Shown: piece by piece, positions 1 through 60,300 of the stretch | How positions within the stretch are numbered: the stretch's first letter is position 1 | Layout: every line of letters begins with the position of its first letter | DNA from: Clytia hemisphaerica | Lineage: Eukaryota; Cnidaria; Hydrozoa; Leptothecata; Clytiidae | Direction: 5' to 3' | DNA: 64,000 nt | Assembly (NCBI GenBank): GCA_902728285.1 | Contig: CACVBU010000852.1 | Coordinates: 76,009-140,008, forward strand | The notes under the pieces: generated by a model | Databases searched by the model: none | Told to the model about the DNA's origin: nothing | What the model saw: the letters and a program-made list of their open reading frames with translations, nothing else | Program-made: the position numbers and the translations under genes

Positions 1-2010
1 ACTATTTTTCTTATAAGCATTCGAAAGTATATAAGAGCACTCGTTCAAATTTGAAAATAACTAGTGGGTATCTTGACTGCAATCTAGGAGGCTGAGATTC
101 ACTTTGAAAGTGAATGTACCTTCATTCAGTTCAACCCTTGTCATGTAAGAATTAAGTAGATAAGAGTCAAGGAGCCTTCTGAATGTTAGCTAGGTATTGA
201 CTCTTAAATACACTATGGATAAGGTGAGAGTAGTCCGGCCTTTTTTTACCTAGTGGTTCTTGCTTGATTAACGCTCTCAGTCTAAAATCTGTGTGTCACT
301 GTTACTGTTAATATTACATAGTGTTTTTCCCATTTTATGGTCCCTTGGGTTTTTGTATCGTCGGCAAAGTAAGAAATATCTAACAACTAATAATATACAC
401 CATTGAAGGGAAAAGGTCATTTTGGACTAGCGGCTAAATTTTTGAAGTTCCTTATTGGCAAAAATTTTCTTAGGTAAAGGGGAGGGGGGGGCTTTTTATT
501 AAATTTTAAAGAGTTTTCTATTCATTCACCCCACATTATTCCAGCCACCCTCTATTAGGTACAAAGTTTCCTTTAGTATTACTTTTCTTTATGGGACTTC
601 AAACACTGAAACTTTATCAGGGGTAAAAATAAGCCTTCCTGAAGATACTCCAGTAATTTCTTTTTCAATTTCGATCCTGCATTCCCGGTCAAAAATGTGA
701 AATTATTGAAAATCTACGGTCAATGAGAGTACTTTTTAGAAGTTTCAGAGTACCTGGAGAAACTTCTAATGGTTTATCAATTTTCTTTATTCCTTATTGG
801 GGCGATACTCGAGGTTTACTGGACAGATATAGGTCCACTCAGAAAGTTTCAACCTCAGAACTTGTTCTTTGAAGCAGAGCTATAAAATTTATTTTAAAAT
901 GACATAGAATATCAAAAGGTAAAAAGTTTTCCCATTAGTTGGGCTATTTTTGAGGTTTACTAATTTGATGTTACAAAAATGCACTTGTAAACCTGTGTAA
1001 ATCTCGAATTGGAAGCCCATAAACGATCTAGTGTATCTAATTATATTATTGTATTTGAGTTATAGCAATTATAACTATTACTTTCAACATCAAGGCATGT
1101 CAACTTCCAATTTTGCACAAACTTCAAAAAGCAATATCAGTATCTAGTCTCATGAAAAGTGATACATATATCTAAAGAGACATATTCAGCCTAACCTTTT
1201 TAGCTTTCAGTAGTTAGTTAGCACCTTATTCTTTGTTTTGTTAACTAATAAACCTCAACAAAATATGTCAAAAACCCCCTAGTTTTCAAAATATTAACAT
1301 AGTTTGCAGATGGATTTCTACCCTTCCCTTTAATAGGGCTTTAATACCATTCCTTTTTACAAAATCTACCTACCGCCAGTGAAAAGTGTCATTTTTAGTG
1401 TTCTTCACATAGACAAAGTATCAATCCAGATCAATCACTTAATCTGGTCAGAAATTTTAAAAAATTGAAAAAGAAGCTTTTATTGCACATCTTCACAAAT
1501 CATTTAAGACTCCTCCCTTTGAAAATCTACTCCACCCTGATTTCTTACGCTTTCCTTTCCTTTCCTTCCAGTAGATGGTTTTTAAGGAGGCTCTAATCCC
1601 TTCAGAAAGGGGGGTTCACACTATGATTAATGAAAGTTTCCTTTTTTTAAAGTCATATTTCTAAAGAAGGATATATCTCTAAATTAATAGCAAGTTTAAT
1701 AAAACTACAGCATTGGCTTCACAAACTTGTTCTTGTATATTCAGAAAGTGAACTAGAGGCTAATTATACCCTAAGAAATGATAAAGATTAGTACCAGACG
1801 GTGAGATTGTCCTTAAAAATAGACAGTATCCTTTGAATAGCTTAGTTGCTTCATTTTCAAGATTTTCTGAAGTACAAATAGTTGCTCAGTTTCAAATTGC
1901 ACATCCAGTGATATATAATATGCCTATGTTTGGGTAAGAAAGATTTTAGTGCCTTGGGGAGGGGCCTTTGGAGAGGAGGGGCCTGGGGGAGACCTTATAT
2001 AGGCATCCCC
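1..2010. other. Gene-poor AT-rich DNA
   Basis: No open frame with family-like sequence and no clear repeat boundary is visible on either strand. Simple homopolymer runs occur. I see nothing here that I can name. Confidence 0.5.
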
Positions 2011-2254
2011 ACATTTTTTTGTTATATTCCATCATTTCCATAGGTTGGCCACTTTTGGGACAGTTTCAAGAAAATTGATTTCTAATATCATAAATTTCTA
2101 AAAATCTTATGTTGGCTTGAAAAGGTTCGTCCCAACATTTTTTTGTTATATTCCATAATTTCCATAGTTTGGCCACTTTTGGGAATGTTTCAAGAAAATT
2201 GATTTCTAATATCATAAATTTCTAAAAAATCTTACATTGGCTTGAAAAGGTTCG
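2011..2254. repeat. Two-copy tandem repeat, about 124 bp unit
   Basis: Two head-to-tail copies begin with ACATTTTTTTGTTATATTCC at 2011 and 2135 and end with AAAAGGTTCG. They differ at only a few bases, for example GGGACAG against GGGAATG in the middle, so the duplication is fairly recent. It lies directly before an open frame (2242-2571) that I do not accept as a gene. Confidence 0.8.
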
Positions 2255-3650
2255 CCCACCCCCTGAAAAGAAATTTAATAGAGCCGCCCGCTGTTCTTTC
2301 ACATTCTTTCACAATTTTTTCTTCGCACTGGAAAAATGTGGTTTTGAACCATGACCTTAGGATTTTGCCTGAAGCGAGACAGGGAGGGATGGGAATAGGG
2401 GGTGTTATCGCAAGGGCGAAAGGAAAAATTGTCGAAAGAAGTCAAGTGATTAATATCATATTCCTTGAAATGGGAATTCCCCTTGAGGAATTCCTAAGAG
2501 ATTTCTATTGTAATACCCCCGAAACAATCCCACAATGCATTGCTTTTTTAGAAAAATCAAAACTCCAATAAGATCTATCAAAACTCATTTAAGCCATTTT
2601 ATAGGTCACTAGAACAAGCCAAAAACAAAACTCAATGGTGTTTGTACGATCTTTATGTACTTTTATTGAATTCTAAATAAAAACTTTATTTGAACTAGAC
2701 CTAGGTTTTAAAAGAGATACAAGCAAAACTATCTACAGGTAATTCAACCTTGTTCTTGTGTATCCCAGGTTTTATTCACGCTACAAATACTCCACATCAA
2801 ATTCCCGCTTTCGTTTGACATTTGACAGCTCGTTACTAAAGACACCAAAAAGCCATGGGAATTTTTTATCAATAGACAATGCGCACAGAGTGAAGTGACA
2901 AACCTGAGATACACTTTGGTACAGAGTACAAAAATTAGGGCTGGTCATTAACCTTCATCATACGCGGCAATCTCATCGGTTGAAATTAAAAAAAAGACTT
3001 TCTGATGGAGCAGCTTACAAGCCATTGAGTTGAGAAGAAGAGACCACTTTCGTTTTTATTGCAGATTTTGAAAGAAACATTGCATGGGGAATATACTTCT
3101 GTCAATGTGTATTATGTGTCAACATTGTAAGCATTGTTAGACCTGCAAACTTGAGATGTCCATTTTGCGTGAGATAAAAATTTTGAAATTATATCCGAAA
3201 TTTGAGCCCAGTTTTCTGTTTTTCCAAAATCAGAAATCGGGGAAACTTTTTCTGAAAATCGGGAAAATCGAGGAAACATTTTTCCTGAAATTGGAAAATC
3301 GAGGAAATATTTGGGACGAGATGGAGCTTTTACAAGCTCTTATTTGATTTGGTTGGTCGTTAACCAGTAATAAAACAATTTTGTTACTTTTTCTAAAGAA
3401 CACATCCTTTTTATTACTTCAAATGACAAATTATTAAAGTATCTTATAAAAACTCCATCTCATCTGAAATATTTTTTCGGAAATACAACAAAGGGACACT
3501 TTTTTGCTAAATTTTGGGAAATCTGAGAAAGTTTTTTCAAAAATTACGTGAGACAATGTTGAAATGTGCCAGTTTCACGCTCAATGTGTGAGAGTACGCA
3601 GGTCTGCATTGTATTGTTGGAATAAGGAAAGAGCCTCCAGTCTAGCTAAT
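2255..3650. other. Intergenic; repeat fragment shared with 6.95-7.05 kb
   Basis: There is no supported gene. The stretch around 3045-3140 (CACTTTCGTTTTTATTGCAG, then a segment rich in TCAATGTGT and TGTCAAC) resembles 6945-7045, so it is part of a dispersed element. A run of GGAAA/GAAAATCG motifs lies at 3230-3310. Confidence 0.5.
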
Positions 3651-3654
3651 TGGC

Positions 3655-3785
3655 AGACAGTGTCAATCCAACGAATCAAACGCCGAATCAATTGAACGCA
3701 ATTGAACACAAACGAATAGTTGCAATTCGATTGTATTCGATTACGTTCGATTACGTTCGACTGATTCAATTGTATTAAATTTTAT
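3655..3785. repeat. Fragment of the GATTACGTTCGA foldback family
   Basis: It starts with CAGACAGTGTCAATCCAACG and runs through AATTGAACGCAATTGAACAC to GATTACGTTCGATTACGTTC. The start resembles the CCAGACGATGTCAATCGA terminus of the better preserved element at 11070. A second relic with GATTACGTTCGATTGG and an inverted terminus (GATTGACACCGTCTTG) lies at 7200-7400. Confidence 0.6.
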
Positions 3786-4224
3786 TCACTTTCATACGGC
3801 ACTTAAGCACTTGACCCTCCACGCTAAGGGACCATCGACAAAAGAAAATCTTTTTTTAACAGCCTCAGACTGTTAAGACTCTGACCCCCTCCCCCCCTTT
3901 CTCTTAACGGCCAAAAAATTCATGAGAACTTTTAAAGACCTGAAATTACCTTTCTCCTACATGTTATTTTGCGTTCTTTTTCTTCACTAACATTGAAATG
4001 ATGTACAATTGAAAAGTATGGTGGAAGCGGTGGATTGTATGGTTTCTTAGTATTTTTTAAGACTTTGGGACACTGCAAGGAGCTTCTATTGTAAGCGAGA
4101 TTTTCCTTCTTTTTTAACTATTTTTGACGACATAAGCGTTGACCCCCTCCCCCCTTACGGTCTTAAGCTGTAAAAAAAAAGGATTGCTGATTGTTGACAG
4201 CCCCTGCTGAAGAGCTCTAACGGA

Positions 4225-5000
4225 GTGATCCAATTTAATCGCAATGAACAGTGCAATATTGCAATCCCACGGAAATGCTTTCAAAACACCAGCTTTTTTC
4301 GAGTTTTGTCTCGATTACCCAAACGCTGCAATTTCGCGTAGGCTTAAGACTCAAGACTAGAACCCCTAATACGAGACATTTGGCTGACCGAAAAAAAATT
4401 ATCATCATCAATTTTGTCGATTGTCAGAATCTTTTACTCACTGGAAATACGCAACTTTTGGAAGTTTAATTTTTTTTCCGTTGTGCTTCATTTAAAAAAT
4501 GATGAAGATGAAAAGTTACCATTGATCCTGCAAGCAAAAAGAGGTATTCCGACTAGTCTATGAAAATGTGCTCGCGCGCAGCGAATAGAATATCTCGCAA
4601 ATTAATATATGCATAAAACTGACAAATTCCTTTCTTTTTTATTCTTAGGTGACGTCACCATCAATCATCAAAGACTTGACAGTAAGAACAATGGAGAACC
4701 AAATTTGGCAATGCATAATAATTATTACAAACGGCTGAGAAAATTTGTGTGACGCAAAATTTGCGCGATAAATGAAGCAGAACGAAGCGCTAGAAAAACG
4801 CCCACTGAAAATTGAAACTGGGAATTTATTGAATATTTCACTAATGAAGTATCAAACGTTTTGTTTTTTGTACTTCTTACAAATTCATAGTTTTTAAATA
4901 TTATTTTTTGAAAGTCAAAGGACAATCAAGGTGAATTTAAGATAATTGGGTGAATATTGGGCGGACAGGCGTTTTGCACATTCTGAGATCGGAAATTAGA
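4225..5000. repeat. Left arm of a long inverted repeat (partner 9577-10320)
   Basis: The arm reads GCGTAGGCTTAAGACTCAAG through AGGTGACGTCACCATCAATC to GGGCGGACAGGCGTTTTGCA. Its reverse complement, diverged by substitutions and small indels, is at 9577-10320. The enclosed 4.6 kb contains two further inverted-repeat elements. No transposase-like frame is visible, so this is a foldback-like non-autonomous element or two opposed copies of one repeat. Confidence 0.75.
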
Positions 5001-5939
5001 CAAATTAGAATATTAATTCATCATTTTGTTAATTTTATTTTTTGCGAAGGCAAAATGAATTTTTGTATTTTTGAATTAAGGAAATATAATGTAATATATC
5101 TATATATTAATCACCGTAGTCTGTAGTCTGTTTTTTGTGTGTCACTTTCGTTTTTGCAAGCAATTTTCTTTTGTTCTCGAAAAGATAGTTTTGATTGACA
5201 GATCGGATAGAGCTTGGTTCAGACTTTATTCAGTCTTTGTTTTGAAATTTAAAGCTCATCTACATTTAGTAATTTTAATTTCTGCCCATGCTTACCTTTT
5301 TCTCTCTTCTTTTGTTTTAAATGTTTTCGAATGTATTTAACGATCGTATTTATTAATGACATTCGAATTGTTTTCAAAACAAAACAATTTCATTTCATAG
5401 AAAAGAATATTTCAAATGTAAATCAAAACATAAAAATCAAAAAGTTTGTCGGACAGCAACAGCATTCAAATGGCGATATAAAGCATAAGAAAAAGCGTGT
5501 TCACCTCTTTCTTCCTATAAAAACATTCAAGTCGTTGTTACTGTTAAAAAGTGTATGTACTTCATTTTACATGTTTAAATCCGAAAAGTTATGACAAGGG
5601 TTAAAAATGCAACTTAGAATTGTCTATTTTTTTTTAATCTGATAAAAACAAAGAGTAGCACTATTCTTTAAGTGACTTTCCCACTTTTTCCTGGAGAATT
5701 GTCATTTCAACTGGACGGCATATTTAACACAAGCGAAGCGAGAAAAACAACTACCTGCAGAGTTGTTTCAAACGACACTGGTACAGTAACTTTTGACTTA
5801 AAAACAAAATTATGTCACAGGGGGAAGAGTACACGATCCAAATATGGTTAAAAGATAAGACGTTTTTTTCAACATCCAAAGGCCTTTTAGTGCGTCCAGC
5901 TACAGCTAAGCCGGCGTGCAACGTCGGGTACCGGCTAGT

Positions 5940-14669: not shown

Positions 14670-23837
<9,168 letters not shown>

Positions 23838-27222: not shown

Positions 27223-30066
27223 ATGGGTGCCTATAAATATTTGGAAGAATTGTACAAAAGGAAGCAGTGTGATTTGCTTCGATTTTTATTCCGTGTTCGA
27301 TGCTGGCAATTACGTCACTTGAACACCATCCACAGAGCATCAAGACCAACACGTCCTGACAAAGCCCGACGACTTGGATACAAAGCTAAACAAGGTTACG
27401 TTGTATACCGTGTCCGTGTTCGACGTGGTGGACGCAAGAAGCCTCTTCCAAAAGGTATCACTTACGGTAAACCAAAGGGAGAAGGTATCAACCAAATCAA
27501 ATTCCAAAGAAGCATCAGATCTGTTGCTGAGGTGAGTTAAAATTTTCTTTGGGTGTTCCAAATGTTTCCTTTCAATATATACAAGTCCAAATGATGAATA
27601 AAATGATGATTTCCGTTCTACTGAAAAGTGAATGATGGTTTTTCTACATGATCTGATGGACAGTTCTCTTTTTCTTCAAAAAATCCACAGTAATTAATGC
27701 TGTGTACACGTTTTTTTTTTTTAAGAAACACACTTTTAAGAAACACGAGGCTCAGAATGCCTAAAAACTAAGAAACATCTAAGAAACATGCTGAGGCTGA
27801 GAATGAGAAAATAGCATTTTTTAATTCGTTTTTTTTTTAAGAACCTTCCAATCAAGGTTCCAGAAATATACATACATAACAGTTAGAAACACTTGAGAAA
27901 GTCAGAAAATCAATATAGAAGATAGGAAAGTACCGTAGATTAGTCAATTAGACTATTGTATTATCGACATGCGTCCTTTAAGCTTGACAAAGTTTTAGAA
28001 ACATGTAAGAAACATTTAAGGCTCAAAAGGCCGATTTCTTAAGAAACATTGAGGCTGCTTGGGAAAACTAGTTTCTTAAAAGAAAAAAAACGTGTAGATG
28101 TCTCCTTACAAGTTTGTAGATAGGATTAGGCTAAAATAGGAAAGACATTGAGCAACATACAGTGTTAAAAGTTCTTCCGTCTCAGACGGATTTCCGTCTC
28201 AGACGGATTTCCGTCTCAGAGAAGTATATAGAGAGGCTTTTCCGTCTCAAAGTTCTGCATAATTCACCAAACATTCAAGAATATGTACTGATTTGCTGTG
28301 TAAAATCCATTTTCCGTCTCAGACGAAAATCTTGCTTTGACCACTGAACATATTTTTCCTAACAATTATTGTATTTTTTGCGGGGATTATACCTGAAAAC
28401 CTATCCAAGATTCTGTATGATGAACAAAAAGTGATTTCCGTTCTACTGACATCTTCAGTGATGGTTTTTCTACATGATCTGACAGAAATTTTTTAATTAA
28501 GTCAACCAAGTTGAACTTCCCCTTTCTGGAAATCTGAAATTTTGTCAATAATGAATAAAATGATGATTTCCGTTCTACTGACTTATTCAGTGATGCGTTT
28601 TCTACATGAGCTGAGACACGAATTGTTACAAATACAAGGTTTTGAGATGTCCTTGTTTTACTATTTTTGGTAATTAAAAAAAAAATCTTAACTATTGCTT
28701 TTTATTGTATTTTATCATTTGTTTACTAACTTCACTTGAGAATTGGCTGTGTGGTCTTTTGTTGTTTTTGATATTTACAGCTTGGTCTACCTTAATGCTT
28801 GTTAACCCAGTGTAGACAGATTTTAGGCTTTACATGCGCTGCCTTTAGATATTGGAATGTAAATTACTTTAGCACGACCAGGCGGTAAACCAAAAACATC
28901 ATCTGGATAACCAGGGTTTATGCCTGAAAGCGTATTTGATATTCTGAATGATGAACAAAAAGTGATTTCCGTTCTACTGACATCTTCAGTGATGGTTTTT
29001 CTACATGATCTGACAGAAATTTTTTAATAAAGTCAACCAAGTTGAACTTCCCCTTTCTGGGAATCTGAAATTTGTCAATGATGAATAAAATGATGATTTC
29101 CGTTCTACTGACTTATTCAGTGATGCGTTTTCTACATGAGCTGAGACAAGAATTGTTACAAATACAGGGTTTTGAGATGTCCTAGTTTTACTATTTTTGG
29201 TAATTTAAAAAAAAATCTTAACTGCTTTTTATTGTATTTTATCATTTGTTTACTAACTTCACTTGAGAATTGGCTGTGTGGTCTTTTGATGTTTCTGATA
29301 TTTACAGCTTGGTCTACCTTAATGCTCGTTAACCCAGGGTAGACAGATTTTAGGCTTTACATGCGCTGCCTTCAGATATTGGAATGTAAATTACTTTAGC
29401 ATGACCAGGCGGTAAACCAAAAACATCATCTGGATAACCAGGGTTTATGCCTGAAAGCGTATTTGATATTCTGAATGATGAACAAAAAGTGATTTCCGTT
29501 CTACTGACATCTTCAGTGATGGTTTTTCTACATGATCTGACAGAAATCTTTAAATAAAATCAACCAAGTTTGACCTCCCTTCTGAACATTTTGTCAATGA
29601 TGAATAAAATGATGATTTCCGTTCTACTGACTTATTCAGTGATGCGTTTTCTACATGAGCTGAGACACGAACAGAACTTTGAAGGTCTGACCTGATATAT
29701 CTGATTGATTAGAACAGGTTAGAATTCTTTCCTACGAATTTTTGTTGTTTTACATGTCAGGAACGTGCTGGACGATACTGCGGAAGTCTCCGTGTCTTGA
29801 ACTCATACTGGATTGCTCAAGATTCTACCTTCAAATATTTCGAAGTAATCATGGTCGACCCACAACATAAAGCTATCCGAAGAGATCCACGCATCAACTG
29901 GATCGTCAAAAGCGTACATAAGCATCGTGAATTACGAGGACTTACTTCTGCTGGACGCAAAAACCGTGGAATTGCCAAAGGACATGGTTATAATAAGGTC
30001 AAGTCATCTTCAAGACGTGCCACATGGAAGAAACACAATTTGGTCAGCTTACGTCGTTATCGTTAA
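27223..30066 (+). CDS. RPL15: 60S ribosomal protein L15 (eL15), complete, two coding exons
   Basis: A structural protein of the large cytosolic ribosomal subunit. Coding exons are 27223-27531 and 29761-30066, joined in phase 0 between SVAE and [17 protein letters not shown], giving 204 residues, exactly the family length. Diagnostic segments are the start [69 protein letters not shown] and a basic C-terminus ending RRYR. A 3' splice site (TATTTTCCTTTTAG, ending at 27214) only eight bases before the ATG shows a further intron in the 5' UTR, so the first exon is non-coding and was not located. The single intron within the coding region (27532-29760) contains seven C/D snoRNA copies and a MITE; ribosomal-protein genes are frequent snoRNA hosts. 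The snoRNAs are then probably released from the spliced intron. Confidence 0.98.
27585..27661 (+). ncRNA. C/D-box snoRNA, copy 1 of 7 (stem type A)
   Basis: Terminal stem GTCCA (27585-27589) pairs perfectly with TGGAC (27657-27661). C box ATGATGA at 27591, D' CTGA at 27621, C' ATGATGG at 27632, D CTGA at 27653. The segment before D' is TTTCCGTTCTA and before D is TTCTACATGAT. It lies in the RPL15 intron, sense to the host. Class is clear; the rRNA target was not identified. Confidence 0.9.
27705..28096. mobile_element. TACACG-family MITE inside the RPL15 intron
   Basis: The ends are TACACGTTTTTTTTTTTTAA and its reverse counterpart AAAGAAAAAAAACGTGTA, with TA on both outer edges as a probable TA target duplication (Tc1/mariner style). 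The inside holds repeated TTAAGAAACA and GAGGCT motifs and no gene. It separates snoRNA copy 1 from the other six. Confidence 0.8.
28170..28332. repeat. CCGTCTCAGACGG short palindromic repeats
   Basis: TTCCGTCTCAGACGGA recurs at 28176-28220 and a half unit at 28312-28325. A related stretch (GTCTGAGACGGAAGAACTGT) occurs at about 56730-56755 in the GPCR gene, so this is a dispersed repeat. Confidence 0.6.
28411..28487 (+). ncRNA. C/D-box snoRNA, copy 2 of 7 (stem type B)
   Basis: Stem TTCTG (28411-28415) with CAGAA (28483-28487); C box ATGATGA at 28417; D' CTGA at 28446; C' GTGATGG at 28458; D CTGA at 28479. The guide segments match copy 1, but the stem bases are entirely different and still pair. 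Confidence 0.9.
28543..28618 (+). ncRNA. C/D-box snoRNA, copy 3 of 7 (stem type C, weak C box)
   Basis: Stem TGTC (28543-28546) with GACA (28615-28618). The expected C box is ATAATGA at 28548, one base off consensus, while an ATGATGA 12 bases further in (28560) could substitute. D' CTGA 28578, C' GTGATGC 28589, D CTGA 28611. The D guide ends GAG instead of GAT. It may be less active than its sister copies. Confidence 0.75.
28942..29018 (+). ncRNA. C/D-box snoRNA, copy 4 of 7 (stem type B)
   Basis: Stem TTCTG with CAGAA, C box ATGATGA at 28948, D CTGA at 29010. Guides are identical to copy 2. It lies 531 bases after copy 2, inside an amplified block that includes the spacer. Confidence 0.9.
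29072..29149 (+). ncRNA. C/D-box snoRNA, copy 5 of 7 (stem type C)
   Basis: Stem TTGTC (29072-29076) pairs fully with GACAA (29145-29149). C box ATGATGA at 29078, D CTGA at 29141. Guides match copy 3; unlike copy 3 the C box is intact. Confidence 0.9.
29469..29545 (+). ncRNA. C/D-box snoRNA, copy 6 of 7 (stem type B)
   Basis: Stem TTCTG with CAGAA, C box ATGATGA at 29475, D CTGA at 29537, 527 bases after copy 4. Guide segments are unchanged. Confidence 0.9.
29592..29667 (+). ncRNA. C/D-box snoRNA, copy 7 of 7 (stem type C)
   Basis: Stem TGTC with GACA, C box ATGATGA at 29597, D CTGA at 29660. It ends about 93 bases before the 3' splice site of the RPL15 intron, a spacing in the range often seen for intron-processed C/D snoRNAs. 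Confidence 0.9.
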
Positions 30067-35424: not shown

Positions 35425-37200
35425 TTTTTTTTCCGTTTTGCTCGTGCAGCCAGCAGCAAATTTCATGAAAAAAAAAGAACGAAATATAACACACGTGGCC
35501 TGGCTATTTTGGCACGTGGTGCTATGGGGTGTATAGGTATATAGGTATATAGGTATATGTACCCCACGAAATCCGTGCCAACGGCAGACTTCGTCCAACG
35601 GTTTTGCTCGTGCAGCCAGCAGCAAATTCCGTGAAAAAAAGAACGAAATATAACACACGTGTCCTGGCTATTTTAGCACGTGGTGCTATGGGGTATATAG
35701 GTATAGAGGTATATGTACCCCACGAAATCCGTGCCAACGGCAGATTTCGTCCAACGGTTTTGCTTGTGCAGTCAGCAGCAAATTTCGTGGAAAAAAAAAA
35801 GCGAAATATAACACACGTGGCCAGGCTATTTTGGCACGTGGTGCTATGGGGTATATAGGTATATAGGTATATGTACCCCACGAAATCCGTGCCAACGGCA
35901 GATTTCGTCCAACGGTTTTGCTCGTGCAACCAGCAGCAAATTTCGTGAAAAAAAGAACGAAATATAACACACGTGTCCTGGCTATTTTAGCACGTGGTGC
36001 TATGGGGTATATAGGTATATGTACCCCACGAAATCCGTGCCAACGGCAGATTTCGTCCAACGGTTTTGCTTGTGCAGCCAGCAGCAAATTTCATGGAAAA
36101 AAAAGAAGGAAATATAACACACGTGTCCTGGCTATTTTAGCACGTGGTGCTATGGGGTATATATAGGTATAGGTATATGTACCCCACGAAATCCGTGCCA
36201 ACGGCAGATTTCGTCCAACGGTTTTGCTTGTGCAGCCAGCAGCAAATTTCGTGGAAAAAAAAGAGCGAAATATAACACACGTGGCCTGGCTATTTTGGCA
36301 CGTGGTGCTAGAGGGTATATAGGTATATAGGTATATGTACCCCACGAAATCCGTGCCAACGACAGACTTCGTCCAACGGTTTTGCTCGTGCAGCCAGCAG
36401 CAAATTCCGTGAAAAAAAAAACGAAATATAACACACGTGTCCTGGCTATTTTAGCACGTGGTGCTATGGAGTATATAGGTATATGTACCCCACGAAATCC
36501 GTGCCAACGACAGACTTCGTCCAACAGTTTTGCTCGTGCAGCCAGCAGCAAATTTCGTGAAAAAAAAGAAGGAAATATAACACACGTGTCCTGGCTATTT
36601 TAGCACGTGGTGCTATGGGGTATATAGGTATATGTACCCCACGAAATCCGTGCCAACGGCAGATTTCGTCCAACGGTTTTGCTTGTGCAGCCAGCAGCAA
36701 ATTTCGTGGAAAAAAAAGAGCGAAATATAACACACGTGGCCTGGCTATTTTGGTACGTGGTGCTATGGGGTATATAGGTATATAGGTATATGTACCCCAC
36801 GAAATCCGTGCCAACGGCAGATTTCGTCCAACGGTTTTGCTCGTGCAGCCAGCAGCAAATTTCGTGAAAAAAGAACGAAATATAACACACGTGTCCTGGC
36901 TATTTTAGCACGTGGTGCTATGGGGTATATAGGTATATAGGTATATAGGTACCCCCACGAAATCCGTGCCAACGGCAGATTCCGTCCAACGGTTTTGCTC
37001 GCGCAGCCAGCAGCAAATTTCTTGGGGAAAAATGAAAAAAACAAAATATAACACACGTGGCCTGGCTATTTTGGCACGTGGTGCTATGGGGTATATAGGT
37101 ATATAGGTATATGTACCCCACGAAATCCGTGCCAACGGCAGATTCCGTCCAACGGTTTTGCTCGTGCAGCCAGCAGCAAATTTCGTGGGAAAAAATGAAA
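35425..37200. repeat. Satellite array, 12 head-to-tail units of about 148-166 bp
   Basis: The marker GTTTTGCTCGTGCAGCC (or CTTGTG) begins units at 35435, 35601, 35757, 35915, 36063, 36221, 36379, 36527, 36676, 36834, 36992 and 37155. Most intervals are 148 or 158, the 10 bp step coming from one more or fewer TATAGGTATA. Each unit carries CACACGTG and GCACGTGG (E-box-like), and GGGGTATA...TACCCC as a small inverted repeat. Minus-strand frames across it are by-products of the repeat. Confidence 0.95.
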
Positions 37201-40210: not shown

Positions 40211-41621
40211 AATATTTTGTTTCGTAAATATCGAAGTAGAATCATTTATCGCGATGAAAAAATTCGTTTTTGAATAACCAGTCAAGTTGGTAAATTCGTT
40301 TTTTCCAACGTGGATTTTTTACATGTGATGACAGAAACCACGCCAAATATAACATTGGTGGGCATCCATTTCCTGGAAATAAAGCAAATATATATTATTC
40401 AATTGAATTGAATTGCATTTTAATTGATTTAAGAGTTAGCCTATACATAGTAGCCTAAGCAGTAGCGAAAAATAAAATCGACGTCGACATTACTCCACGT
40501 CGAAAAATCGTCAAAGTGGAACTCACCAAGGAACAATACAAAACTATTGGTTTTTGGTGAGGTAATCAAAAAACCATAAAAACTCGCGAGAAACTTGTAT
40601 ATTTCAGTGGCGGGGGTCTGAAATTTACACCGGGGGAGTGTTTAATACTATGTAAGAAAGTATGTTTTACCTGAAAAAAAACAGATACAAAATCAAAAGT
40701 ATCACAATCGCCATAAGGACTCGAAAAGAATTTTCTTCGAATAAACTTCGGCCAAAGTGCATTTTTGAAAAAACAGTCGCCATCAAATTCTTTCAACATG
40801 TTTGATCTTTTTCTTTTCACTCTTTGTCAATGCTTTTAGCTTTCGAAAGTGGGAAAGCATTTCTTCCAACTCCATCTTTGTAATTTACAATTTCTGTTTT
40901 TACTAAAAGATAAAAGTGTCTGTACACTACCTTTTTCAGATAACTCAATTAACGAGAAGAAATCTTTTTTTCACGACAATTACCATAAAAGGCATGAAAA
41001 GATTCGAGATTTCTCTTTCGTTTTCGGCTTTTTGTCGTATGTCGTTTGAATGACATTTGTTTTAACACTTTTATTTTCGTTAGTTGTAATTTTTGATTGA
41101 CGGCTTCATATTATGGAGATAAAAGGAAGAGAGATGTTTACGAACTGTGCAGCTGGCTGCCAGAGGATAAATGTCATAGTACTGGACATGAATGTGATAT
41201 TTAAGTTACGTTTTTATATTACGCCTCTGGTCAAAACTTATCTAGGAGCGTTTAAGTTTACTCCACGTACACACTTTTGTACCCTAAAAGAGGCTTAAAA
41301 TTTTCTCAGCTATTTTTCAAATTTAAGGGTAAGATTGTTCTTATACTTTTGTTCTTAGGTTTTTGCAGAAATATAACCTCATATTGTTCATGGTCTTCAT
41401 AGAACTTTACAAGAAGGATTGGTCTGGAATGGAGAAAAGTCAAATTCTTCACATTCTTCATTGTTTAAAACTTGGAAGCAGCCCTGAAAACAACCCTGTA
41501 TCAGTAGCAGTTGTAATTTTTCACCTTTAGAAAAGCGCAAACATCATCACCGCCTAATCGCCTGGTCGAGGTCAAGAACTAAGGATGATTAAATTCGATC
41601 AAAACAAGACAAATGCTAAAT
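40211..41621. other. Intergenic, nothing recognised
   Basis: A short stretch at 40505-40565 (GTCAAAGTGGAACTCACCAA, then TTTTTGGTGAGGT) is similar to 56985-57035, so it is a dispersed repeat. No gene is supported. Confidence 0.4.
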
Positions 41622-48366: not shown

Positions 48367-51300
48367 ATGGATTTGTCATTAATCTTAATAAAATCGAGAT
48401 ATATCGTTTACTGGATTGTGCTTTTTATCATTTTAAAAGGTAAGCTTCATACTACACGCTTTTTTTATAAACACACCCAAAATTTTTAAAGCCTTCGGAT
48501 GTTATTAACTTTTTGAGTTTTAAGCCTAAACATGTTCTTATTTTGACCATTTTGTGAGTATTTTTGACCATTTTCCTAAGAGAAAGGGTGTTTTTGACTC
48601 ATTTCGGTAAGCTAGCCCAAAGACAATACAGCAAAACCATGAAGGTGATAAACATTAGGAGCTAGAAATAGCTATATATCTTTGGATAAGGTCTTACTCT
48701 TCCCCTGCATAACACGGTGAATTTGACCTTTAATCTTTAACATATACCTGCCACATATGTTGGCAATCCATTTGAAGAATGAATTCAACTGAACTAGATT
48801 TCATTTATCTGACTTATGTAAACATGTTTAAAAATTATTCATAGTTTCCCCAACATATGGGTCATCACATCTGATTCCAATATGCATACCAAAGACATAC
48901 CACATTCAATGCCCACCAAATCAAAGAATACATGTCGAAAGTGCATTGCTTGGACGAGATAGTCAACAACAGAGTCAAGCTTGTGGTAGCAGAGCACGTG
49001 TTTTTGTGAGATGTGTAGCTGATGTCAAAGGAAGTATATTACATCGGTGTGAAGGAAGAGCACGGTGTGACTTAAAGGTGAATTTCCAAGAGTTCAAAAA
49101 CCCGTGTAGTTATCCTGATGGAGAGCATTTGATGTTAAAGTACAGTTGTTTGGAAGGTAAAGACATTATTTAGGATAAAAATTAGGGGGTAGAGGACATA
49201 ACATTCTTCATGTACTATCCATGGACATAAGAAGTCTGGCTCCCCAGTCTGGTTGCCCAAGCAACCAGTTTGACCCTCCCAGAACAATAGATTCTTGCCC
49301 CTCGAAAGTGTGGATTACCCCCCTGATTATAAAATACCCTTAATAATATAGCTTATAACATTTCTCCGATGTACAAATATTTTCTCGAAGAGACTACCTT
49401 AAGAGAAGAAATTTTCGCGGAAATAAATTTCGCGGTTCACAGCTCAAAATTCGGAAGTTTCACGGAATTAAATTTCGCGGTTGAGAGAACTTTTTATTTG
49501 TTCTGCGAAAATTTCTTCCCTTCGATAAAAACTCGTAGCTTACTTAGTATACATCTTAACAAACGAATATCGAGACTCAAAAGAAGATTCTCAGCCTTGA
49601 AGTTGACGCAATGAACCTGATCTGATCCAAGAATCGTCTTTCCCAGTCAGATACAATGTCATTTCTCCTCCACGATCGGCAAAATCTAGTGCTATTGAAT
49701 CTGGTCCACACGCAGGGAGACATGTGGTAGGTTTAAGAAGAGTGATGTAAGTTGATTCATCAATTAAAAATAAGAAAGAAAATACCACGTTAAGAATTAT
49801 CGAGTACCAATTTCCACTGTAGCAGCAATCGCAAATGAGAAATGGCATTAGCTTTTCATTCGGAAACACTCGGGGAAACAGTGCCACTAATTCATCTTTT
49901 CCCAAAGTTCCATCACTGAAGCACCAGTTTCCAGTACCTTTCTCTCCGTGGCCAGTATAGTAAATAACAGGTTGAAATTTTTTACCACATGCTTGAAGGA
50001 GATCCTTGATTTTCCTTATTGCTTCATTCTTCGTCAGTCGGTCATCTTTAACAGTGTTGAATTTATAAAAGTTGTTCAATCGAAGCGCATCTTCCATATT
50101 TGCAATGTCTTTAGCAACTCCAGGTAAAAAGTTACCATTTCTGGCTTTCGAGCGCCGTCTGGAAACTATGATGTTATTCGGGGGACTTAAAGCCCCTGAC
50201 AAAATCAACCATTTTGAGTCGTTTTGTACAATGCCTTCATGCTTTAGGTTACAAATTTTGTATTTAGATACTTTAGATATATCTAAAGCCATTACTGCAT
50301 TAATTCACCCAAAACTCTTCTATATGTATGATTTTATTTTTCAATAACAAATGCTCTGATCCTCTAATAACTATCAATCTGTGTTTATGTGTCTCTCTCG
50401 CATCAGAAATCTTTTCGTTCTCTTGGTTCGTGTTCATTTCAATTTCCCCTGGTTTTGTCTCTAAATATTCTTTTGTTATTCCAAGTGATTATTTGTTCTA
50501 ATCATTTTCTTTGGCATTTACTAACAGTCATCACGTGCCTTTACAATGATTCAGCACTTTGGACTTCTTGCATATGTCAATCTTGTTGAGGGTAAATCAT
50601 TCCACGTTTTTTTTCTAACTACATGCTTTTTTTTTATAAGATAGAATGGTGTTTTTTCATTTCATCATGGGTATTCTTAACTCTTTTAGGAAAACCATCC
50701 TAAAATATTCTTACAGCATTCTTAGGTTAGGATATTTAGGATATTTAGTACATACGTCTAAAGCATATAATAGCATTTTTTTGTGAAAGGGACGAGCCTT
50801 ACTTGGGGGTAATGGACAATTTATAATTAAAAAGAGTAGCAAAATTCCATGATGGTGATATTCTTAGCATTATTCTTAATTTTTTGGCCATTTTAATCAT
50901 GGACATTCTTATACTCTCTCTCTCACTCTCTCTCTCTCTCTCTCATTCTTATAAAAGTGTATTCTTATAAAAAAAAGCGTGTATATAAGAGTATAAAGGC
51001 TTCGAAGGCAGAATATTATTTAAGAACATTTTAAGAATGTTTTTTGGGCTTAAGAATCAAAGCTACAAAAAATTTGGATGTTCTTATGAAAAAACGTGTA
51101 ATGTGTTAAAAAATAAATCCATTCCGAGAAATTTGAAATGCACTGCAAGGGTAGCAAATCCAGGAAAAATCATTGCTAGTTTTTGCCCAAAAATTCTGAT
51201 TATTTCGCTCTAAAAGGGTTGAAATTTGAGAAAAGTGCACTGCAAGGGTATAAATTTGACCAACTTTTGCTGCACTTTAAAGGGTGCGATTCTTTTTTGC

Positions 51301-57300: not shown

Positions 57301-60300
57301 ATCGCATCGCGTCCTACAAAAGGTATATATACGCCACGAGTTTACTGCGCAAAAAAAGCTTTTTAAGCAGATATAAAAACAGTTCATGCTAATTATTTTT
57401 TACCTCTAGTCCAATATGGTTGCTTTGCCCGGCTAACAGAGCCGAGATCAACTCGCACGCGTCTAAGGCTTGAAAAAAAGTTTCTGAAGATAATAAAATT
57501 TCTATTCGCAACCTTCCACTTACAAAAGGCAACCCAACAAGATAAGCAATAGTGTATTGATAAAAATCTTATAAACAAAGATTTAAGAAATTTTAGAAAA
57601 CAATTCTTTCTACTTTAAGGAATTCATACTGGCTGACATTTGAAGTGGAGACAAGAGGTCATCTTCACCAGAACAGTTCAGTAATTGGATTTTATCAGAA
57701 AATTGTATTCAATGATCAAAATCTTCATCCTTTCGATTACCGCATGGAATCATTCAAAGCGTTTGACCCAGGTAAGACAGTTTCTACAAAATGGGGTGGA
57801 GGATTTTAGGGGGGATTTGCGCTAAATTTATGACACCCTTAAATGGGGAGGTGCGAGAATATTGTCGAAATCTCGATTTTGAATTTTAAAGAGATTAAGC
57901 TTAAGATAAATTTTGGGTTTATATTCAAGATTTTCACGGGGTCCGCACCAACGACAGGGAGGACCGAACAATGGCATTGTCCTTGTACTATAGCCATTTT
58001 TCATTCAAAAGTACTTATGACTGCCCCCTAGAAGAAATGTTTTATAGTTAACTTTCTTGAAATCTGAACCTTCATTTTCTTTTCTAAGGTTCTCCGAGCT
58101 TTGAAAGTCATTCTGTAACGATAATCTACTGCAATAATTAGAAGATTCTTAACACCTGAAGAGTCTTGATTAAACAATTTTGTTCGGATATTTAAAGGAA
58201 GGAAAGGAGGAAATAAGGTACAAGGAAAGGGAAATCATAGCGCTTACCAAATCGTATTCTAACACAAGGTCTCTCGTTCTGAGAGGGCTAAAAAAGTACA
58301 AAAATTAACCAGGGAAGACATGAGCAAAATTCAGTACTGAACTTTTTTACATCTTTAGAATATTGTCTCCCATCAACAACCGGACAGTCATCAAGTTACG
58401 GTCAATACAGGTGGAATTTCACTCGCGTCGGTGGCACCCAAGTTCAACAATGTAACTATGGTAACGCCACAACATGGAGGGAATGTCGACGGAATCTCAA
58501 TAGTGGTGCATTTTGGAGAGAACCGAACGTAAAAGGATGCTCGCATGAAAGTGAAAGAAGCCGAGAATTGACAGACATTTTAAAGGTAAATAAATGGCTC
58601 GTGGTAAAATACGATATTTGCATTTTTCTTATCAGATCGATAGTAAGAAAAACTTTGAGTACAACAACTATAGAGGTTTATATATTTCTTTATGAGTGTA
58701 ACCTCTTTTAAAATTGTACTTGTTTAATAATTAGCTACCGTTAAGGCCGATCTCCACTTGCGCACGCTGTGATCGCACCTTTTGGCTTCAATCTTTTTTG
58801 GACCTACCCCGGTGGAGGTCCTATAAATTAACCTTTGTCCGTTCGTCCGTTCGTCCGTTCGTTCGTTAGTTATTAGCTTTCCTCGTGATTGGCTCGTTAG
58901 TTTTTTCTGATTTTTTGCATAAAGATGCATAACTATAAACCCTCGAATGTGACGGAGCCCGATTTTCAAAAAAAAAATTTTTTGGGCAAATTTGGGCCAA
59001 AAAACGGCTAAAAAACGGGTTTTTTGGACTTTGTGAAAAATTAGGTCGTTAATTTTTTCTGATTTTTTGCATGAAAGTAGGGTACCATCGTAGGTAAAAA
59101 TTGGCTTAAGCAGATTTTTGCAAAAAAATTTTGTTGGCTCAAAAAACGCATGTTTATCTATAAGAATCATTATTAATAAGCATACATCGATGTTCTTAGT
59201 CAAATAACTCAATTTTTTTATGAGATAGATGTTTTTTTTCTCAGGAGGGCTTACTTTTAAAGAATATGTGTGTTTCGACATGAAATTTTGGTTGCTTGGC
59301 GTGTTTTTATAGAAAAACTGGCCAAATTCGATATTTTATTATAAGCACATTATCAATTACTTAGGTATTAGCTTTTCTCGAGATTGGCTCTTTCATTCTT
59401 TACGATTTTTTGCACAAAGATGCACAACTATAAAACCCCGAATGTGACGGAGCCCGATTTTCGGAAAATAATTTTTGGGCAAATTTGGGCCAAAAAACGG
59501 CTAAAAAATGTGTTTTTTGGACTTTGTGAAAAATTGCATCATTAATTTTTTCCGATTTTTTGCAGGAAAGTAAGGTACCATCATAGGTAAAAGATGGTTC
59601 AAACAGATTTTTGCAAAAAAATTTGTTGGCTCAAAAAACGCATGTTTATTATCTATAAGAATAGCTATTAATAAGCATACATCAATGTTCTTAGTCAAAT
59701 AACTCAATTTTTTTATGAGATAGATGTTTTTTTTGCTCAGGAGGGCTTACTTTTAAAGAATATGTGTGTTTTGACATGAAATTTTGGTTGCTTGGCGTGT
59801 TTTTATAGAAAAACTGGCCAAATTTGATATTTTTTTATAAGCACATTATCAATTACTTAGGTATTAGCTTTTCTCGAGATTGGCTCTTTCATTCTTTACG
59901 ATTTTTTGCACAAAGATGCATAACTATAAACCCTCGAATGCGACGGAGCCCGATTTTTGGAAAATAATTTTTGGGCAAACTTGGGCCAAAAAACGGCTAA
60001 AAATGTGTTTTTTGGACTTTGTGAAAAATTGGATCATTAATTTTTTCTGATTTTTTGCAGGAAAGTAAGGTACCATCATAGGTAGCAGATGGTTCAAACA
60101 GATTTTTGCAAAAAAGATTTATTGGCTCAAAAAACGCATGTTTATCTATAAGAATCACTATTAATAAGCATACATCAATGTTCTTAAAATTACTGAATTT
60201 TTTGATGAGATATGTTTTTTTGCTCTCGAACTCTTGAATATGAAAGAATATTTCAAGAGCATGAAATTTTGGTTTCTAAACGTGTTTTTTATAAGAAACA

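Follow-up and report, generated by a model that had tools for sequence, protein, structure and literature searches.

What would seven copies of one small RNA be doing in a single intron of a ribosomal protein gene? The question is raised by a 64,000-nucleotide (nt) stretch of the genome of the hydrozoan Clytia hemisphaerica (contig CACVBU010000852.1; the whole stretch is called the window), in which an original prediction had placed a seven-copy array of box C/D small nucleolar RNAs (snoRNAs) in the RPL15 intron. Our analysis leads us to think, with a probability of about 0.87, that this intron holds a single box C/D snoRNA gene in seven copies, a cluster that arose through local duplication.

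Seven units with shared boxes and guides

The predicted coordinates proved right when the sequence was read again. The units are of three types, one S, three A (A1–A3) and three B (B1–B3) (Table 1). Each has a D box CTGA, an internal D' box CTGA and a C' box (TGATGG or TGATGC), with guides upstream of D' and of D and a terminal stem of 4–5 base pairs (bp) that joins the ends of the unit. All four boxes had been taken to be common to the array, which holds for D, D' and C' in 7/7 units and fails for the C box, which follows the consensus RUGAUGA in six of the seven and reads ATAATGA in B1. The units were also said to share two guide segments and indeed TTTCCGTTCTA and TTCTACATGA each occur seven times on the forward strand of the window and not at all on the reverse strand. 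The D' guide TGATTTCCGTTCTA and the D' box together make up 18 contiguous columns that are invariant in all seven units. Likewise, the D guide TTTTCTACATGA has 12 columns without any variation among the seven, and the base adjoining the D box is T in the S and A types and G in the B type. The C box of B1 is probably impaired. In the portion of PMC12309372 available to us, the SnoBIRD authors name mutated boxes and weak stems as features that mark a copy as unexpressed; in line with these features B1 is the weakest copy, and it is probably dying.

A strict scan of the 64-kb window, requiring a consensus C box, CTGA and a stem of at least 5 bp, found five of the seven units on the forward strand and none on the reverse strand, while 30 first-order random sequences (one strand each) gave three matches in total. 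B1 and B3 were missed because of the design of the scan, as both have a 4-bp stem and B1 has the altered C box. A covariance model built from the seven units recovered all of them, by construction, at 97.8–108.3 bits. Its two extra matches were weak, one at 40267 (21.0 bits, E = 0.11) and one at 14946 (18.7 bits, E = 0.33). The former was considered as an extra or decayed copy and rejected for its weak score and, on reading, the lack of a C box at its 5' end.

Covariation of the terminal stems

The three predicted stem types were found as described: GTCCA/TGGAC, TTCTG/CAGAA, and TTGTC/GACAA with its shorter form TGTC/GACA. The covariation test covered six distinct rows and five pairs, and three lineages stand behind these rows. 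Stem cells were paired at 93.3%, and four of the five pairs change on both sides. The covariation score was 0.747, compared to a mean of 0.242 for shuffles, none of which (0/500) scored as high; slid versions of the structure scored 0–0.120. When each unit was folded alone, the minimum-energy structure contained the stem in S, A1, A2 and A3 (4/7). Compensatory change in the stems had been put forward as strong evidence for selected RNA genes. The covariation itself holds, but the independence of the copies was overstated: since A1–A3 and B1–B3 are tandem copies, the three stem types amount to three lineages, and the covariation rests on three rather than seven.

Old types and recent copies

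The flanks of the units bear on how the copies are related. In ungapped comparison S has 4 of 30 upstream bases in common with A2, and the same number with B2, which is no likeness at all. The A–B pairs lie in tandem repeats of about 527 nt, in which one 300-nt block is 98% identical. Judged from these alignments, S, A and B are three old types, and A1–A3 and B1–B3 are tandem copies.

A1 and A2 are identical at 75 of 76 positions of the unit and at only 21 of 29 positions of the upstream flank (Fisher p = 1.1e-4). Similarly, B2 and B3 agree at 76 of 77 unit positions and at 37 of 46 aligned columns of the A–B spacer (p = 5.9e-4); in the next 20 nt downstream 5/20 are alike, and homology may simply end there. 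A2 and A3 are silent on selection because their units (76/76) and upstream flanks (29/29) are both identical. Our conclusions on unit versus flank rest on the A1/A2 and B2/B3 pairs, and not on three unit/spacer tests (p = 5.6e-12, 5.1e-13 and 0.57), which lump old copies with recent ones and include doubtful columns beyond B3. The likeness among the units could be due to selection or to local gene conversion; the compensated stems favour selection. Because the boxes and their spacing recur, the stems covary, the units are kept while their flanks differ in the A1/A2 and B2/B3 pairs, and all seven lie in sense orientation within the intron of a ribosomal protein gene, the best reading of the units is an array of box C/D snoRNA genes under selection.

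The host gene and its intron

The RPL15 product has 204 amino acids and matches Pfam PF00827 with E = 7.1e-88 in the 64,000-nt window. An intronic snoRNA cluster is understood here as at least two snoRNAs in one intron on the sense strand of the host, and seven putative snoRNA units lie on that strand within 27532–29760. The first of them, S, has its C box at 27591, 59 nt downstream of the 5' splice site, and the D box of the last, B3, ends 97 nt before the 3' splice site. Six stretches were folded in search of hairpins that might act as processing signals, and five of these gave z between -0.54 and 1.28; 29668–29760 alone stands out (Table 1). The same intron also holds, between S and A1, 2.7 perfect copies of the 17-nt unit TTCCGTCTCAGACGGAT (28175–28220), which by eye has a self-complementary core, and more partial copies up to 28324.

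Table 1 Features of RPL15 and of the putative snoRNA array, in window coordinates.
Feature	Position	Strand	Terminal stem	C box start to D box end	Remarks
RPL15 coding exon, first coding part	27223..27531	+			103 codons; PF00827
Host intron of RPL15	27532..29760	+			2229 nt; GTGAGT...CAG
Unit S	27584..27663	+	GTCCA/TGGAC	27591-27656	
Tandem repeats	28383..29742	+			one A-B pair per repeat; repeat starts 531 and 527 nt apart; the third repeat is shorter
Unit A1	28410..28489	+	TTCTG/CAGAA	28417-28482	
Unit B1	28541..28621	+	TGTC/GACA	28548-28614	C box ATAATGA
Unit A2	28941..29020	+	TTCTG/CAGAA	28948-29013	
Unit B2	29071..29151	+	TTGTC/GACAA	29078-29144	top SNORD59 score, 32.7 bits
Unit A3	29468..29547	+	TTCTG/CAGAA	29475-29540	
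Unit B3	29590..29670	+	TGTC/GACA	29597-29663	
Predicted stable hairpin between B3 and 3' splice site	29668..29760	+			-22.8 kcal/mol; z -2.83; 1/200 shuffles as stable
RPL15 second coding exon	29761..30066	+			PF00827

Resemblance to SNORD59

The original prediction had looked to an Rfam covariance-model search for the name of the family; no family reaches its gathering score in the whole 64 kb. A permissive search gave 80 matches in 27500–29800, and 77 of these were to C/D families. The lowest E-value belonged to SNORD59 (RF00273) at 29072–29149 (32.7 bits, E = 2.6e-4, cut-off 45). SNORD59 matches six of the seven units, the other five with E from 0.0041 to 0.076, and for unit S the match is to snoZ159, a member of the same clan (26.8 bits, E = 0.035, cut-off 39). 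Two other C/D families, snoR23 and Afu_191, outscore SNORD59 in bits at A1–A3, with worse E-values.

Apart from this E-value, the array resembles SNORD59/U59 (RF00273; snoZ159, RF00160; yeast snR54) in its D' guide, which has CGTTCT before the D' box CTGA in the same place. However, the U59-type consensus before D' is CUUUCGUUCUU and the array units have AUUUCCGUUCUA, and the D guide is different. We paired the D' guide with the U59 site in an animal 18S string, printed as a primer in the part of PMC11178569 that we saw: 12 of 14 positions pair, and two mismatches, at positions -1 and -8, break the pairing to this foreign 18S string. In the Rfam 18S consensus, conservation is strong at the base opposite -8 and less so at the base opposite -5. 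Filing the units as SNORD59 was rejected on the two guide mismatches and on the score of 32.7 bits against a gathering score of 45. As a printed string, TTTCCGTTCTA turned up in no snoRNA-titled paper among the matches listed.

Candidate targets in rRNA

Both guides were scored on 5,038 nt of ribosomal RNA (rRNA), made up of parts of JAKUNN010000063.1 and JAIYBU010000224.1, which are stray contigs filed under bacterial genomes (the former with the rRNA of another eukaryote), and of a 251-nt fragment resembling large-subunit (LSU) rRNA. This fragment, presumably LSU, came from a literature search for the hairpin string. At a guide length of 13 bases, the D' guide pairs best at GAGAACAGAAATC and the B-type D guide at CTCATGGAGAACA, in both cases over 11 of 13 positions. 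The two sites lie 6 nt apart in one hairpin, with a joint score of 18.0; of 2000 shuffled pairs 22 did as well, and of 3000 random 13-mer pairs 17. Overlaid on TAGAA, the guide complements read CTCATGTAGAACGGAAATC, which is like the printed fragment at 17 of 19 positions, with the outer D-guide bases, which do not fit, left out. The fragment, with CTCATGGAGAACAGAAATCTCC as its hairpin part, is printed in the excerpt of PMC5327576 that we used.

That both guides read one 28S hairpin is suggestive only. In C. hemisphaerica this would need a changed stem, and the prediction is that a stem TGTAGA/TCTACA with the loop ACGGAAA would fit the D' guide over 13 bp and the B-type D guide over 11. A perfect match to TAGAACGGAAATC would then be expected in the rRNA of the species, above all within CTCATGTAGAACGGAAATCTACA; a literature search for the predicted hairpin strings gave no paper. 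We tentatively place the D' guide target in 28S, at either of two places, at slightly less than even odds. A target elsewhere, or none, is a lesser though sizeable possibility, and the U59 site of 18S is an unlikely target. Two further sites for the D guide, GGGTGTAGAATAAGTGGG of yeast 25S (a run of 8 bp) and 28S at CAGAACGGTGATCATGG of JAKUNN010000063.1, were rejected as not clean. For the D' guide, the presumed animal form of this 28S site is a poorer partner (6.5; -9.8 kcal/mol).

JAKUNN010000063.1, filed as Dehalococcoidia, carries in 1–5151 a full-length eukaryotic 18S, 5.8S and two 28S parts on the minus strand, probably as a binning error in a public genome. JAIYBU010000224.1 (1–809), filed as Cytophagaceae, has a run of A followed by a eukaryotic 28S 3' end. 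The viral contig IMGVR_UViG_3300007304_000150 starts with a short eukaryotic 28S-like piece (about 1–150) followed by unrelated DNA and by eye looks chimeric. The guides were also scanned over 1,700 nt of this contig, and those rows were set aside as mostly outside rRNA. A search of plasmids and phages with an LSU piece gave no match, and three further scans of viral contigs found no eukaryotic rRNA.

Alternative explanations

Several findings weigh against a cluster of one C/D guide RNA as we read it. The seven units are predictions from sequence, and Rfam at gathering score names none of them. Two of five stem measures were matched by shuffles (change on both sides in 39/500, further pair types in 62/500), the minimum-energy folds of B1, B2 and B3 lack the terminal stem, and between whole repeats 1 and 2 the units (150/153) did not differ in identity from the spacers (334/345; p = 0.57). 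As regards targets, the rRNA set lacks about 1.2 kb of LSU (model positions about 1290–2710, less the fragment) and the rRNA of C. hemisphaerica itself. Neither guide finds a mismatch-free pairing in these 5,038 nt of foreign rRNA, and singly the 13-base guides do no better than shuffles (821/2000 and 812/2000 as good). The hairpin fragment was added after the likeness had been noticed, so that the odds given for the joint score are optimistic; without it the best B-type joint score is 15.0. Furthermore, with the D guide in its S/A form the score is 17.0 at the other 28S place, a level that 62 of 3000 random pairs reach, and the 14-base D' guide also prefers that other place (9.5 compared to 8.0; duplex -15.8 compared to -12.5), although its sequence there is the foreign one of JAKUNN010000063.1.

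The units could instead be divergent SNORD59/U59 genes, with the D' guide still on the 18S U59 site (AAGAACGAAAGUC) and the D guide with another target or none. The shared CGTTCT and the lowest Rfam E-value point this way, but only two of the six matches have E < 0.01, all fall below the gathering score, other C/D families score more bits at A1–A3, and the mismatches at -1 and -8 occur without exception in S, A and B, with a strongly conserved 18S base facing -8. The equivalent Neurospora guide is given as 13/0, which we read as 13 pairs and no mismatch, in the portion of PMC2780460 that we saw. We consider this explanation unlikely.

A role like that of the repeated orphan snoRNAs of mammals, directed at a non-rRNA target or at the host intron itself (splicing, or long RNAs with snoRNA ends), is quite improbable. 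The missing perfect rRNA match would suit it, although that lack was seen in foreign rRNA. A ribosomal protein gene is, moreover, the usual host for snoRNAs that guide rRNA modification. Ribosomal protein hosts are counted in Drosophila in part of PMC13228274. In support of an orphan role, large tandem C/D families are described as orphan, and sno-lncRNAs (long non-coding RNAs ending in snoRNAs) as arising when two snoRNAs share an intron, in an excerpt of PMC11028025. Finally, the units might be snoRNA pseudogenes in a non-functional tandem repeat, spread by duplication only. The damaged C box of B1 and the tandem, in some cases recent, origin of the A and B copies would fit, yet three old types with unrelated flanks have kept boxes, guides and compensated stems, which makes this the remotest of chances.

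Proposed origin and mechanism

In the cluster reading that we prefer, an old split gave the S, A and B types, and tandem copying of the A–B pair followed. By analogy with the class, the spliced RPL15 intron would yield the units as free RNAs, which would associate with the usual C/D proteins at C/D and C'/D' and direct 2'-O-methylation to one or two sites, each at the fifth base counted from D or D'. The fifth-base rule is given in the part of PMC8162545 that we saw, which also puts the best place for a snoRNA about 50 nt upstream of the branch point; the 97-nt gap between the B3 D box and the 3' splice site is filled here by the predicted hairpin. The copies may be kept because they provide more dose of one guide. 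Inner copies would need an endonuclease or else escape release. As a long shot, exonuclease trimming from both ends would halt at the S and B3 snoRNA-protein particles (snoRNPs) and yield a nuclear, snoRNA-ended RNA of about 2.1 kb. This RNA would bear as many as seven C/D particles, and the snoRNA copies in it would carry paired guides directed at a single rRNA hairpin.

The array offers a natural case in which to ask how several snoRNPs come out of one intron, given that exonucleases by themselves would free just the outermost ends, and whether extra copies are kept for dose. With old and young copies in one intron, the drift of the flanks can be compared with the constancy of the RNA units. 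Were both guides to recognise a single 28S hairpin whose stem is peculiar to the species, guide and rRNA would be changing together.

Relation to known snoRNA arrays

The RPL15 array belongs to a known class, the intronic C/D clusters, and its copy number is unusual. Copies of SNORD115 and SNORD116 sit in successive introns of a non-coding host, unlike the RPL15 array in its one intron of a ribosomal protein gene. The likeness lies in the tandem copies of one C/D snoRNA family, as described in an excerpt of PMC11028025. The same excerpt bears out the earlier remark that several copies of one snoRNA in a single intron are unusual, as the rule in animals is a single snoRNA to an intron, with clusters inside introns recognised as a class. 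Clusters of several snoRNA genes per intron appear in the portions seen of both PMC2780460 and PMC11028025, and according to the former they were reported first in rice and then in Drosophila. In that fly many intronic snoRNAs are clustered at loci such as Uhg1-8 (PMC13228274, in part), and 27 ribosomal protein genes host snoRNAs (PMC2246290, in part). The RPL15 array would differ from these clusters, as they are described, in that all seven units copy a single guide RNA. Titles and abstract starts among the matches listed mention no intron with seven copies of one guide, which is weak evidence of absence. Neurospora CD49 is a further likeness, as a two-guide intronic C/D RNA whose D' guide is of U59 type and whose D guide is assigned to LSU (site 26S-Um2682); the comparison comes from one table row in the excerpt of PMC2780460, and not from the D-guide sequence.

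Other features of the window

Outside RPL15, the window contains about 11 head-to-tail copies of a 158-nt unit at 35435–37195 (90% matches) and 2.8 copies of a 495-nt tandem unit at 58866–60225 (91% matches). Pfam also places a SUEL-type lectin domain at 48832–49173 on the forward strand and a caspase-like domain at 49591–50304 on the reverse strand.
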